A stretch of DNA of 64,000 nt. Origin: Halobaculum marinum (lineage in GTDB: Archaea; Halobacteriota; Halobacteria; Halobacteriales; Haloferacaceae). The stretch covers positions 2,108,001 through 2,172,000 of the forward strand of contig NZ_CP119989.1 in the NCBI RefSeq assembly GCF_029338555.1, read 5' to 3'. Made by a program: the position numbers and the translations under genes. Each line of letters begins with the position of its first letter. Position 1 is the stretch's first letter. The notes beneath the pieces were generated by a model that ran no database searches, was not told the DNA's origin, and worked only from the letters and a program-made list of their open reading frames with translations. This document shows positions 40,232 through 46,256 of the stretch, piece after piece.

Positions 40232-41191
40232 CTAGAACTCGTCGATGTCGGTACCGACCGAGCAGACGTACTCGCCGGTGGCGACCTGCGGGAGGCGACG
40301 CGAGCGCCAGAAGATGCCGTCGTTGTCGGCGGTGACCCGCGCCTTCAGTTCGCCGAACGCGTCGGTGACGCGGAACAGCGTGTCGCCGCGCGAGACGGGG
40401 TCGCCGAGGTCGACCTCGAAGGTGACGAGCCCACCCGACGGCGAGCCGTACTGGTCGAACCCGGAGGCGCGCGTCTGGAGGTCCCGTTCGACCTCGCCGT
40501 CGAGGAAGCCGTAGTAGCGCAGGACGCGGAACATCCCGTCGAGTCCGATCTGGATCGACTCCTCGTCCCAGCCGACGGCGCCGCCGAGCTCGGGGTCGAT
40601 AGTCGGGATGCCGTTGTCCGGCGCGGCGCGGGCGAGTTGGCCGTCCGGACCCTTCTGGTCGAGGACGTAGCCGGTGCCGAACACCTTCGCGAGTTCGAGA
40701 CACTCGCGGTGGAGGCGGTGGCGCGGGCCACACCGGACGCGCGTCTCGTTGATCATCCGTGAGGTGCGCCCTTGGTGGAGGTCGACGACGAGGTCGGCGC
40801 GCTTGGCCGCCTCGAACGTCGCGGCGGCGATACGCTCGGAGGAGGTGCCGTTGGCGTCGCCGGGGTACGCCCGGTTCATCTTCGTGTCGTCGATGGGGTT
40901 GCGGTGCTCGGCGACCTGGAACGCGTGGTAGTTGACGATCCCGACGAACAGGATCTGGCCGGCGACCTCCTCGGGGTCGAGTTGCGGGACGAGGCGGTTG
41001 ATCACGCCCAGTCCGTTCAACTCGTCCCCGTCGCTGACGGCCTGCACGTAGAGGGTCTTCCCGTCCGCGGCGCCGTTGAGCACGGCGACCGGCAGCCCCA
41101 CCGTGGAGCCGTCGCGAGTCTCGCCCACCTCGAGCCGACCGGTGTCGAACTCCCCGGGGGACGCGCTCGCGCTCCCGAGCGTCGTCATCAT
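40232..41191 (-). CDS. Succinylglutamate desuccinylase/aspartoacylase-family deacylase
   Basis: The 319-residue zinc hydrolase of the AstE/AspA family shows NYHAFQVAEHRNPIDDTKMN followed by RAYPGD (the N-x-x-DxNR-xPG motif) and DLHQGRTSR (zinc His), then a C-terminal barrel-like domain (VTFEVDLGDPVSRGDTLFRV). It would remove an acyl group from an N-acyl amino acid. I prefer the ATG at 41189-41191 because a box A (CCTAAAGAG, 41216-41224) lies 29 bases upstream; a GTG at 41195-41197 is alternative. The substrate is unknown. Confidence 0.88.
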   Translation of the reverse strand: MMTTLGSASASPGEFDTGRLEVGETRDGSTVGLPVAVLNGAADGKTLYVQAVSDGDELNGLGVINRLVPQLDPEEVAGQILFVGIVNYHAFQVAEHRNPIDDTKMNRAYPGDANGTSSERIAAATFEAAKRADLVVDLHQGRTSRMINETRVRCGPRHRLHRECLELAKVFGTGYVLDQKGPDGQLARAAPDNGIPTIDPELGGAVGWDEESIQIGLDGMFRVLRYYGFLDGEVERDLQTRASGFDQYGSPSGGLVTFEVDLGDPVSRGDTLFRVTDAFGELKARVTADNDGIFWRSRRLPQVATGEYVCSVGTDIDEF

Positions 41192-41215
41192 TGTCACACG
41201 CTTTCGGGTATCCCC

Positions 41216-41335: not shown

Positions 41336-42433
41336 ATGGTCGACATCGACGACCGCGAGGGGCGTCTGGATCGGTTCCTCGCGGAGGGGGGGTACGAGGC
41401 GGTGTGGTTCGCGCGACCCAACGCGTTCGCGTGGCTCACCGGCGGGTCGAACCGCGTCGACGGCGACGCGTCAGTCGGTGACGCTGCCGCCGGCTACCTC
41501 GGCGACGGTGAGTGGACGGTCGTCACGAACAACATCGAGGCGGCCCGGATCGCTGCGGAGGAACTGCCCGCGGAGCTCTCGATGTCCGTCGCCGCGGACG
41601 ACTGGTACGAGGGCGACCTCGCGGCGTCGGTGGCCGCTCGCTCGCCGACGCACGCCGCCGCGGACTTCGACGTGCCGGGGCTCGACACGGTGGACCCGAC
41701 GCGACTGCGCCTGCGCCTCGGCGACGACGACCTCGCCGCGTACCGCGACCTCGGGCGCGAGGTGGCGCTGGCGGTCGAGACCGTCTGCCGTGAGCTCCAA
41801 CCGGGCGACACCGAACACGAGGTGGCCGCCGGACTGCGTATCTCGCTGGCGGGCCGCAACATCGAGGCACCGGTCGTGCTCGTCGGTGGGAGCGAACGCG
41901 CTCCCGAGTACCGCCACCCGACGCCGACGGACGCCGCGCTCGGCGACTACGCGCTCGTGATCGTGACCGCCCGTCGCGGCGGCCTCCACGCCTCGTGCAC
42001 GCGCACGGTCGCGTTCGACCCGCCCGAGTGGCTCGCCGAGCGCCACCGCGCCGCCCAGCGCGTGGAGACGGCGGCGCTGGCGGCGACCCGTGACGCCGCT
42101 GGCCGCGACGACGGCACGGCTGGCGACGTGTTCGACGCCATCCGCGAGGCGTACGCGGAGGAGGGGTACGACGGCGAGTGGCGCGAACACCACCAGGGCG
42201 GCGCGACCGGCTACGCCGGGCGAGAGTGGTTCGCGCGCCCCGACAGCGACGCCCCGGTCGCGAGCGAGGCGGCGTACGCGTGGAACCCGACGGTGCAGGG
42301 AGCCAAGAGCGAGGACACCGCCTACGTCACCGACGACGCCGTCGAGGTGCTCACCGACTCCGGTCGGTGGCCGACCGATACAGTCGATGCGGCGGGCCTG
42401 ACGCTCCAACGGCCGGCGATCCTGGAGAACTGA
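41336..42433 (+). CDS. M24 (Xaa-Pro peptidase/creatinase) fold protein lacking metal ligands
   Basis: The 365-residue protein has the two-domain layout of prolidase-type M24 proteins: an N-terminal creatinase-like domain (WFARPNAFAWLTGGSNRV) and a C-terminal pita-bread domain with HHQGGATGYAGREWF near residue 285. Metal peptidases need two Asp (DxG, SDxTRT), a His and two Glu. Here the corresponding segments read TARRGGLHASCTRT (about residues 210-223) and YAWNPTV (about 314-320), so both Asp and one Glu are missing; SEDT retains the last Glu. It may be a creatinase-like non-metal hydrolase or a binding protein. A box A-like ATTCAAG lies about 29 bases upstream. Confidence 0.85.
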   Translation: MVDIDDREGRLDRFLAEGGYEAVWFARPNAFAWLTGGSNRVDGDASVGDAAAGYLGDGEWTVVTNNIEAARIAAEELPAELSMSVAADDWYEGDLAASVAARSPTHAAADFDVPGLDTVDPTRLRLRLGDDDLAAYRDLGREVALAVETVCRELQPGDTEHEVAAGLRISLAGRNIEAPVVLVGGSERAPEYRHPTPTDAALGDYALVIVTARRGGLHASCTRTVAFDPPEWLAERHRAAQRVETAALAATRDAAGRDDGTAGDVFDAIREAYAEEGYDGEWREHHQGGATGYAGREWFARPDSDAPVASEAAYAWNPTVQGAKSEDTAYVTDDAVEVLTDSGRWPTDTVDAAGLTLQRPAILEN

Positions 42434-42568: not shown

Positions 42569-43918
42569 ATGAGTTGGCACGGCGTCGACGCGGTAGACGA
42601 CGCGATCGACGTGACGCGGGAGTTCCTCTTTCCCGCACGACTCGGCCGCTGGGCCCGAATGGCCGTCGTGAGCCTCTTCACGAGCGGCGGCGGCGGCACC
42701 GCACAAATCGCCTCCAACGCCGGTCGTCTCGGCGCGCAGTTCGCCGGGTCGGGCGGCGTCCCGAGCAGTCCCGGGTCGGCGGCCGCGGTGGCGTCGCTCC
42801 TCGTCGCCCTCCCAGCACTCGCGTTCGCTGCTGCACCGACGCTCGGTCCCCTCCCGGCACCGCTCCAACAGGGCGTCCCGACGCCCGGTCCCGGTGCGCT
42901 CGGCATTGTCGGGTTCCTCATCGCGGCGTTCCTCCTGTTGCTGGTGCTCGCATTAGTCCTCATCTCGCCGGCGTTCCAGTTCGTCCTCGTCGACGCCATC
43001 GCGCGCGACGACCTCAGACTCCGCCGGGACGTACGGGCGCACTTCGTCAACGGCCTGCGCCTGCTCGGCTTCCAGATCGGACTGGCCGCGGCGTTCATCG
43101 TCCCGCCGGCGGCCATCGTCGCCGGCGCCATCCTCTCGGGGACCAGCGCCGACGCGGTCGCCTCCAGTCCGCTCGCGCTCGTCGGGATCGCGGCGGTGGT
43201 CGTCGTGTACGTCCTCGCGTTCGCGTTCCTCTCGCGGTTCACCGTCGAGTTCGTCGTGCCGGCAATGGTCGCCGACGGCGGCGGCGTCATCGACGGCTGG
43301 CGCCGGATCTGGTCGCTCCTCCGGGGACAACTAATGCAGACGGTCGTCTACATCGTGATGCACTGGCTCGTCGGCATCGGCATCTCCATCGTGTCGCTCG
43401 TGTTGACCCTGCTGGGGATGGTCGTCGTGGGCGTCATCGCCGGCGTCGTCGGCCTCGCTGTCGGGGCGCTCGCCGGCGGTGCCACCGGGACGGACCTCGG
43501 TGTCGGCGTCGGCTTCCTCGCGGGCACACTCGTCGGGGTCCCACTGTTCGTCGTCGCGGTCGCGGCCCCCGTGAGCGTCCTCACGCTCACGGTCAAGCGC
43601 TCGTACGAACTCGCGGCCCTCGGGCGGTTCTCCGAGCGCCTCAACCTCGTCGACCGCTACCGTGAACACGGCGACGACGGCGGCGACGTCGAGTCGGCGC
43701 TGCGCACGGGTGCGGACGCTGACGACGAGAACGACGACCACGACGACGACGGCGGCAGTGCGAGCCTCGGTGACAGTGGCGAAGACGACGGCGACGACGG
43801 CGACGACGGTGACGACTTCGGCGGGTTCGTCGCCTCGGGAGTCGAGGACGACGACCCGGACGCTCCGACCGAGGACGACGGCGCCGCCGCCGACGACCGC
43901 GACCGTCGAAACGAGTAG
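42569..43918 (+). CDS. Multi-span membrane protein (DUF7544-like)
   Basis: The 449-residue protein starts MSWHGVDAVDDAIDVTREFL followed by FPARLGRWARMAVVSLF and contains about six membrane helices. The long cytoplasmic C-terminal tail (about residues 365-449) is almost entirely Asp, Glu, Gly and Ser. From memory the N-terminus matches the haloarchaeal family DUF7544; no transport or catalytic motif is visible. The regular Gly/Val-rich helix pattern with FxDAIARDDLRLRRDVRAHF between spans resembles uncharacterised glycerophosphoryl diester phosphodiesterase-type membrane domains, a weak similarity. Confidence 0.78.
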   Translation: MSWHGVDAVDDAIDVTREFLFPARLGRWARMAVVSLFTSGGGGTAQIASNAGRLGAQFAGSGGVPSSPGSAAAVASLLVALPALAFAAAPTLGPLPAPLQQGVPTPGPGALGIVGFLIAAFLLLLVLALVLISPAFQFVLVDAIARDDLRLRRDVRAHFVNGLRLLGFQIGLAAAFIVPPAAIVAGAILSGTSADAVASSPLALVGIAAVVVVYVLAFAFLSRFTVEFVVPAMVADGGGVIDGWRRIWSLLRGQLMQTVVYIVMHWLVGIGISIVSLVLTLLGMVVVGVIAGVVGLAVGALAGGATGTDLGVGVGFLAGTLVGVPLFVVAVAAPVSVLTLTVKRSYELAALGRFSERLNLVDRYREHGDDGGDVESALRTGADADDENDDHDDDGGSASLGDSGEDDGDDGDDGDDFGGFVASGVEDDDPDAPTEDDGAAADDRDRRNE

Positions 43919-43994: not shown

Positions 43995-46256
43995 ATGGGA
44001 CTGGACGACGACGCGCGGGAGTACCACCGATCGGACCCGCCCGGAAAGATCGAGATCTCGACGACGAAACCGACGAACACCCAGCGCGACCTCTCGCTCG
44101 CCTACTCGCCCGGCGTCGCGGCGCCGTGTCTCGACATCGACGAGGACGAGGAGCGGGCGTTCGAGTACACGGCGAAGGGGAACCTCGTCGGCGTCGTCTC
44201 CAACGGCTCGGCGGTCCTGGGCCTCGGCGACATCGGCGCGCAGGCGTCCAAGCCGGTCATGGAGGGGAAGGGCGTCCTGTTCAAGCGCTTCGCCGACATC
44301 GACGTGTTCGACATCGAGTTGGACCAGGAGGACCCCGAGGACATCATCCGGACGGTCGCGGCGATGGAGCCGACGTTCGGGGGGATCAACCTGGAGGACA
44401 TCAAGGCGCCCGAGTGCTTCGAGATCGAGGAGACGCTCCGTGAGAAGATGGACATCCCCGTGTTCCACGACGACCAGCACGGGACGGCGATCATCTCCGG
44501 CGCGGGGCTGATCAACGCCGCCGAAATCGTCGACAAGGACCTCTCGGACCTGGACATCGTGTTCTCGGGGGCGGGCGCCTCCGCCATCGCGACCGCGAAG
44601 TTCTACGTCGAACTCGGCGCGGACGCGAGCAACATCACGATGTGTGACTCCACCGGGATCATCACCGAGGAGCGCGCGGCGGCGGGCGAGGTGAACGAGT
44701 ACAAGGCGCAGTTCGCCAGTGAGGGTTCGGGCGGCGACCTCGCGGACGCGATGGAGGGGGCTGACGTGTTCGTCGGACTCTCCGTCGGCGGCATCGTCAG
44801 CCAGGAGATGGTGCAGTCGATGGCGTCGGATCCGGTCATCTTCGCGATGGCGAACCCCGACCCAGAGATCACCTACGAGGACGCCAAGAACGCCCGCGAC
44901 GACACGGTCATCATGGGGACGGGGCGCTCCGACTACCCGAACCAGGTAAACAACGTGCTCGGGTTCCCGTTCCTGTTCCGCGGCGCGCTCGACGTGCGCG
45001 CGACCGACATCAACGAGGAGATGAAGCGCGCCGCGGCGGAGGCGCTCGCCGAGTTGGCTCGTCAGGACGTGCCCGACGCCGTCGTGAAAGCGTACGGCGA
45101 CCAGCCGCTGAAGTTCGGGCCGGAGTACGTCATCCCGAAGCCGCTCGATCCGCGCGTCCTGTTCGAGGTCGCGCCCGCGGTCGCGCAGGCAGCGATGACC
45201 TCCGGCGTCGCCCGCTTCGACATCGACATCGAGGAGTACGCCGAGCGACTGGAGGCGCGCCTTGGCAAGAGCCGCGAGATGATGCGCGTCGTCCTGAACA
45301 AGGCTCGGTCGCAGCCAAAGCGCGTCGCGCTCGCGGAGGGCACCGACGAGAAGATGATCCGCGCGGCCTACCAGATGGCCGAACAGGGCATCGCTCACCC
45401 GGTCCTGCTGGGTGACCGCGACACCATCGAGTCCACGACCGCCCACCTCGGCTTAGAGTTCGACCCGGAGGTCGTCGACCCCGACGACGCCGAGGCCGCA
45501 GACGAGTACGCCGAGCGCCTCCACGAGATCCGCAAGCGCAAGGGGATCACCCGCTCTGAGGCCGGCGAACTCGTCCGCCGGGACACGAACTACCTCGGGA
45601 GCGTGATGGTCGAGCGCGGCGACGCCGACGCGCTGCTCACCGGGCTGACCCACCACTACCCGAGCGCCCTCCGCCCGCCGCTGCAGGTGATCGGCACCGC
45701 GCCGGACGCCGAGTACGTCGCCGGCGTGTACATGCTGACGTTCAAGAACCGCGTCGTGTTCTGCGCCGACACGACGGTGAACCAGGCGCCCGACGCCGAG
45801 GTGCTGGCAGAGGTGACCAAACACACCGCGAAGCTCGCACGCCGCTTCAACGTCGAGCCACGCGCGGCGATGCTGTCGTACTCCAACTTCGGCTCCGTCG
45901 ACAACGAGGGCACCCGCAAGCCCCGGGCAGCGGTCGAACTCCTGCACAACGACCCCGAAGTCGACTTCCCAGTCGACGGGGAGATGCAGGCCGACACCGC
46001 CGTCGTCGAGGACATCCTCGAGGACACGTACTCGTTCTCGGAACTCGACGGCCCGGCGAACGTGCTCGTGTTCCCGAACCTCGAAGCGGGGAACATCGGC
46101 TACAAACTGCTCCAGCGCCTCGGCGGCGCCGAGGCCATCGGCCCGATGCTCGTCGGGATGGACCAGCCCGTGCACGTGATGCAGCGCGGCGACGAGGTGA
46201 AAGACATCGTCAACCTCGCCGGCGTGGCGGTCGTCGACGCGCAAGACGACGAGTAG
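43995..46256 (+). CDS. maeB: NADP-dependent malic enzyme with C-terminal phosphotransacetylase domain
   Basis: The 753-residue protein combines a malic enzyme (residues 1 to about 430: [55 protein letters not shown]) with a phosphotransacetylase-like domain (about 435-753: [40 protein letters not shown]). It decarboxylates malate to pyruvate with NADP. In bacterial MaeB the second domain is catalytically inactive and regulates the enzyme by binding acetyl-CoA; whether that applies here is not known. This is the normal two-domain MaeB length. It has its own promoter. Confidence 0.94.

Follow-up and report, generated by a model that had tools for sequence, protein, structure and literature searches.

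Conserved M24-fold proteins lacking most metal ligands: a clade linked to sugar gene clusters and a possible aldose mutarotase

The M24L locus of Halobaculum marinum and the fold of its product

The window analyzed here is a stretch of 64,000 nucleotides from the Halobaculum marinum genome. It contains an open reading frame at 41336..42433 (+ strand) that encodes a protein of 365 residues, and both this gene call of the initial annotation and its likeness to the M24 family were borne out: the protein matches Peptidase_M24 (PF00557) with an E-value of 1.2e-11 and 45 bits against a cut-off of 23. This weak match is its sole Pfam hit, a scan against NCBIfam gave zero matches, and public records label such genes as 'M24 family metallopeptidase'. 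We refer to this ligand-less M24-fold protein as M24L. Divergent from it lies a gene for an AstE/AspA-type deacylase (40232..41197, - strand), for which the best NCBIfam model is DoeB (E-value 2e-32, 112 bits, far under the cut-off of 402.7). Downstream are genes for a DUF7544 membrane protein (42569..43918, + strand) and a malic enzyme, presumably of the MaeB type (43995..46256, + strand). None of these window neighbors is a sugar gene. A promoter and terminator scan designed for bacterial promoters gave no result. ARAGORN placed a tRNA-Ser at 41433-41512 (- strand), within the M24L coding region; this call is doubtful and probably false, since Rfam gave no tRNA at the same position.

An AlphaFold2 model of M24L, built from 41 family members, reached a pLDDT of 93.1 and a pTM of 0.90 and has the complete two-domain fold of the M24 superfamily, with a pita-bread C-domain and a creatinase-like N-domain. 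The closest structures were Xaa-Pro peptidases and prolidases (Foldseek E-value 6e-21; VIA Z-score 31 over 333 residues), followed by creatinase, the ectoine hydrolase DoeA and the DMSP lyase DddP (VIA Z-scores of about 29) and by Spt16 (25-27). This fold is similar to peptidases and non-peptidases alike and, therefore, cannot separate them. Indeed, creatinase, DoeA, DddP, Spt16 and Ebp1 are already known as non-peptidase M24 folds: creatinase and DoeA use the fold metal-free, and the Spt16 N-domain and Ebp1 (PA2G4) are eukaryotic and non-catalytic. A sequence search gave prolidases as the nearest solved structures, and all 15 matches of a profile search of the PDB are peptidases (best E-value 2.5e-14). 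Thus, the analogy with creatinase drawn in the initial annotation holds for the fold but not for the sequence, and no gene context points to the amidino compounds proposed there for assay.

The structural kinship bears on a scenario that makes M24L a C-N hydrolase of the creatinase or DoeA type, with the AstE/AspA deacylase of the window as its partner, as DoeB is that of DoeA. The Z-score of 29 to both enzymes and the DoeB-like divergent neighbor are consistent with this scenario, but the score of that neighbor is far from the DoeB cut-off, the deacylase adjoins M24L at only four Halobaculum-type loci, and the profiles retrieve peptidases rather than creatinase or DoeA. Elsewhere, the gene context of M24L differs from that of these enzymes and has no relation to nitrogen compounds. 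We consider such a C-N hydrolase quite improbable.

Metal ligands and fixed residues of the M24L family

We aligned 114 M24L members, including 83 haloarchaeal (query included) and 31 bacterial proteins, with six M24 paralogs from the same genome; some of the 114 rows represent the same species twice, and hence the counts are not independent. A frameshifted gene (L041), copies of the query (L060 and L061), repeats (L091-L095), a fragment (L128) and two canonical proteins (L129 and L130) were dropped. A second alignment set an M24L subset against 12 Clostridia-type M24 proteins. Canonical M24 proteins follow the pattern D...D, H-x-x-G-H-G, ...HE, E-P-G and R-x-E-D, with D, D and H at the ligand columns in 12 of 12 canonical controls. 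The M24L pattern is S/V/I..., S/N/T/A, H-H-Q-G-G, ...RE, W-N-P-T/S and K-S-E-D, in which V/I/S, S/N/T/A, G, N and E stand in place of the five-ligand set D-D-H-E-E. Four of the five ligands are missing in each of the 114 aligned members.

In the H. marinum protein, the segment of the two Asp ligands (residues 205-224, YALVIVTARRGGLHASCTRT) contains no acidic residue, as had been claimed; the place of the first Asp is occupied by I209-V210 (41960..41965; this and the following codon positions are on the + strand) and that of the second by S220 (41993..41995), which is S, N, T or A across the family. The claim was equally correct for the first-Glu segment (residues 312-325, AAYAWNPTVQGAKS), where the canonical Glu ligand of EPG corresponds to N317 of WNPT (42284..42286); the column of this Glu shifts between alignment programs, and the whole segment is still without acidic residues. 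The His region had been thought to remain, but the metal His is replaced by G289 in 114 of 114 members, with HHQGG (residues 285-289, 42188..42202) set against the canonical H-x-x-G-H-G. H285 aligns with the non-ligand His of this motif, not with the metal His, and it is not essential, since Leu, Phe or Asp replaces it in 5 of the 31 bacterial members, among them three encoded in gal clusters (L108, L111 and L113). The last Glu is retained as E326 in SEDT, in agreement with the initial annotation, and is the only ligand kept. The loss, therefore, comprises four ligands rather than the three implied earlier. It is common to all 83 aligned haloarchaeal proteins, and neither alignment brought acidic residues to the lost ligand positions.

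This ligand loss, found in all 114 members, contradicts the metal-dependent Xaa-Pro peptidase of the public annotation, a function to which we give almost no credence despite the PF00557 match above the cut-off. M24L shares with aminopeptidase P and prolidase (M24B) the whole fold, including the N-terminal creatinase-like domain, and retains their residues E326, R223, E160 and H194. Unlike these peptidases, it lacks two Asp, the metal His and one Glu, carries RE instead of HE, and is encoded next to sugar genes. The His of the HE motif is catalytic in PepP; its place is taken in M24L by R296 (42221..42223). Ten residues are invariant in all 114 members (E160, R188, H194, G216, R223, G288, G289, G322, K324 and E326), and five more are nearly so, namely R193 (110 of 114), R296 (113), N317 (112), H286 (111) and Q287 (112), with L126 as the single member departing at R296 and N317. 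The features that distinguish M24L from canonical M24 proteins are R188, R193, G289, R296, N317 and K324; two groups of the fixed residues are encoded close together, R188 with R193-H194 at 41897..41917 and K324-S-E326 at 42305..42313. A pattern common to two domains of life argues against ligand loss by chance. As judged from the alignments, M24L is a different fixed set of residues and not a product of decay, which disagrees with the earlier option of a pseudo-enzyme.

In the phylogenetic tree, 46 M24L rows lie on one side of a branch with support of 100/100, opposite 18 canonical M24 proteins, some of them on long branches; the midpoint root is no more than a drawing aid. The simplest reading of this sequence-based tree is that the metal would have been lost once, in the ancestor of M24L.

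Two further M24 genes of H. marinum lie beyond the window. The first of them, L057 (G000:C1:2797214-2797879), encodes a paralog with changed ligands, having TGA at the first Asp motif, Glu at the second Asp and HSD instead of RIED, and is perhaps a second non-canonical M24 protein. The second one, L058 (G000:C1:2172711-2173265), is situated about 700 bases beyond the window end and encodes an M24 protein with aligned Asp, Asp and His ligands, which we take to resemble methionine aminopeptidase.

Distribution and gene context in archaea and bacteria

Of 60 genomes sampled from the haloarchaeal family of H. marinum, 53 encode M24L, and those representing three genera do not. A strong match (E-value of 6.5e-29 or better) was obtained for 23 of the 199 genomes in the bacterial phylum of one Clostridia genome (G060), the next match having an E-value of 3.5e-9. 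A further 37 plasmid records with matches, for 18 of which the annotation was examined, extend the distribution to Thermus, Deinococcus, Pantoea, Nostoc and Gloeothece. The initial interpretation of a haloarchaeal non-metal hydrolase or pseudo-enzyme is supported in its core of a metal-free, non-peptidase M24 fold with conserved ligand loss, but not in its haloarchaeal scope or in a decay to a pseudo-enzyme. A possible gene fusion at L110 and L134 was set aside, as the evidence amounted to a long frame in GC-rich DNA.

Among the haloarchaeal plasmids, nine of ten loci have M24L among genes for arabinofuranosidases, sugar ABC transporters, XacR, the xylose dehydrogenase Gfo6 or similar proteins; the tenth, from Natrinema, has a chromosome-like setting. 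On a Haladaptatus salinisoli plasmid, an unannotated M24L copy matches in two pieces (L156:7001-8055) and may be a broken gene inside an arabinofuranosidase cluster. Nine chromosomal loci of Haloarcula have a GH13 alpha-glucosidase-like gene directly downstream of M24L on the same strand, and two genes sampled by Pfam immediately upstream of it encode a nucleoside hydrolase and a Gfo/Idh/MocA oxidoreductase. Among other haloarchaeal genera, M24L is followed by a malic enzyme gene on the same strand in 17 loci, which represent many genera (e.g., L016, L025 and L043). Divergent orientation to a CtaA-like gene was found in 22 haloarchaeal loci. In the main haloarchaeal context, that of the window included, M24L adjoins genes for malic enzyme, CtaA and AstE-like proteins rather than sugar genes, and any sugar role of the H. 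marinum protein is deduced from its relatives, because its own neighbors are of other kinds.

Bacterial M24L genes were found in a variety of sugar gene clusters. All three Thermus plasmids examined encode XylF, a permease, an ATPase, a ROK regulator, XylA and XylB, then M24L and a Gfo/Idh/MocA oxidoreductase, in the order xylFHG-ROK-xylA-xylB-M24L-Gfo/Idh/MocA. The xyl cluster of Thermus brockianus has been described, and the passages devoted to it do not name the M24L gene (PMC5292009). In Deinococcus, M24L has L-fucose isomerase, sugar ABC transport and ROK genes nearby, and in Pantoea it accompanies ROK, MFS, GMC oxidoreductase and SDR genes. The Nostoc gene is directly downstream of malQ, and in Gloeothece a gene for a glucan glucosidase lies some 2 kb away. 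Among the Clostridia-type bacteria, wide regions from 19 of the 23 M24L genomes provided 20 loci, of which five contain galT-galK-galE galactose clusters (L132, L135, L137, L140 and L144), four have fucose-isomerase-like genes (L136, L143, L145 and L147), two have uronate genes for altronate dehydratase, a mannitol-dehydrogenase-type protein and KduI (L133 and L141), and one has a phosphoglucomutase gene (L146).

Neighbor families were counted wherever the central gene was recovered, at 18 of 20 loci for M24L and 12 of 20 for the canonical control. The commonest families among the 105 neighboring ORFs of the 18 M24L loci include ABC transport (5), permease (5), ROK (4) and GalT (4), as well as GalK, GalE-like proteins and fucose isomerase (3 each). 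The 72 neighbors of 12 canonical M24 genes from the same phylum instead include EF-P (9), SpoIIIAA (6), dehydroquinase II (6) and TldD (5); one transport family is shared by both sets (permease, 2 in the control), and the first 25 control families include no sugar-enzyme or ROK family. The recurrence of sugar gene clusters in both archaea and bacteria suggests that M24L probably has a sugar-related role.

The frequent adjacency of ROK-type regulators would be compatible with M24L as a non-catalytic sugar-binding regulator or scaffold comparable to Spt16 and Ebp1, as would the lost ligands and the fold match to Spt16. However, most M24L clusters already hold a regulator, and the invariant polar set of R188, H194, K324 and E326, placed in the old active-site motifs, resembles a working pocket, so that a purely binding function appears unlikely to us.

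Predicted sugar role and the distribution of GalM

We propose that M24L is an old, conserved, metal-free and non-peptidase clade that may act as an enzyme of sugar catabolism, with an aldose mutarotase (1-epimerase) replacing GalM as the most likely activity, although for the combined proposal, as for the mutarotase role taken separately, we rate the chance at somewhat below even. The gene context suggests free sugars as the substrate. The M24L clusters already hold transporter, isomerase, kinase or dehydrogenase genes, and mutarotation is proposed because it would be common to xylose, galactose, fucose, uronate, arabinose and glucan clusters of differing chemistry; the context of sugar genes alone does not specify it. 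Under this proposal, M24L would act on a free reducing sugar, with H194 and E326, both invariant and assigned by their motifs to the former active-site cleft, possibly serving as an acid/base pair for opening the sugar ring and closing it again. R188, R193, R223, R296, K324 and N317 would hold the sugar hydroxyl groups; going by the positions of the M24 motifs, we assume that these residues share a pocket. The predicted effect is a faster supply of the required anomer, or of pyranose from furanose, for the next kinase, isomerase or dehydrogenase. No link between M24 proteins and sugars or mutarotases came up in searches of a literature collection that covers few subscription papers.

The same sugar-cluster context would accommodate another metal-free enzyme for sugar derivatives, be it a hydrolase, a lyase or an isomerase, whose substrate would be a glycosylamine, a lactone or a sugar acid and whose site would be the old cleft with its arginine cluster. 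The M24 fold hosts the non-peptidases creatinase, DoeA and DddP, and an anionic substrate would fit the several arginines and the lysine. On the other hand, the known pathways offer no sugar derivative common to the Leloir galactose, xylose, fucose and glucan clusters, which do have in common the need for the right anomer, and no missing step except mutarotation unites them. We regard this alternative as possible but rather doubtful.

GalM is the usual partner in galactose clusters. A mutarotase in the gal operon is, going by its title, the subject of a 1994 report by Bouffard. Passages of a more recent work place the xylose mutarotase XylM within the XylR regulon (PMC12285236). M24L shares with GalM (PF01263) and XylM the placement in gal and xyl operons and is unrelated to them in fold and sequence; a shared function is possible, that of M24L being a prediction. 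Consistent with a separate fold, M24L matches PF00557 only and not PF01263, the GalM-type aldose 1-epimerase family. GalM was not seen in the M24L galactose clusters. Among the 60 haloarchaeal genomes, two have a PF01263 match with an E-value of at most 0.001, both partial and one above the cut-off, and GalM was not found in the H. marinum genome or in the Haloferax volcanii and Thermus composti controls. That M24L forms a fold-unrelated class of sugar mutarotases, with the metal lost once in a single ancestor, and provides haloarchaea and GalM-less bacteria with their general mutarotase is a broader suggestion that we make tentatively and consider possible at best.

Within the Clostridia-type phylum, galactokinase is encoded in 54 of the 199 genomes. 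These GalK-positive genomes comprise three with both M24L and GalM, nine with M24L only, 33 with GalM only and nine with neither, a distribution indicating mutual exclusion (Fisher p 0.0011), whereas no anticorrelation was observed over all 199 genomes (p 0.42). After correction for relatedness, with an RpoB tree built for these 54 genomes, the exclusion was not significant (median p 0.5 and 1); the pairs on this tree, of which only four to six are independent, mostly showed the expected direction or no difference. Since three GalK-positive genomes have both genes and nine have neither, GalK can do without either.

If the proposed role is correct, many genes named metallopeptidases are misannotated, a fold of peptide chemistry has been turned to sugars in the absence of its metal, and haloarchaea and other GalM-less sugar users gain a testable mutarotase candidate. 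Should mutarotation prove wrong, M24L would still be a well-delimited family, marked by its fixed residues and recurrent neighbors, and ready for assay. A link between M24L and glucose dehydrogenase was also considered and rejected: strong PF16912 matches occur in six of the seven haloarchaeal genomes without M24L and in 49 of the 53 genomes with it.
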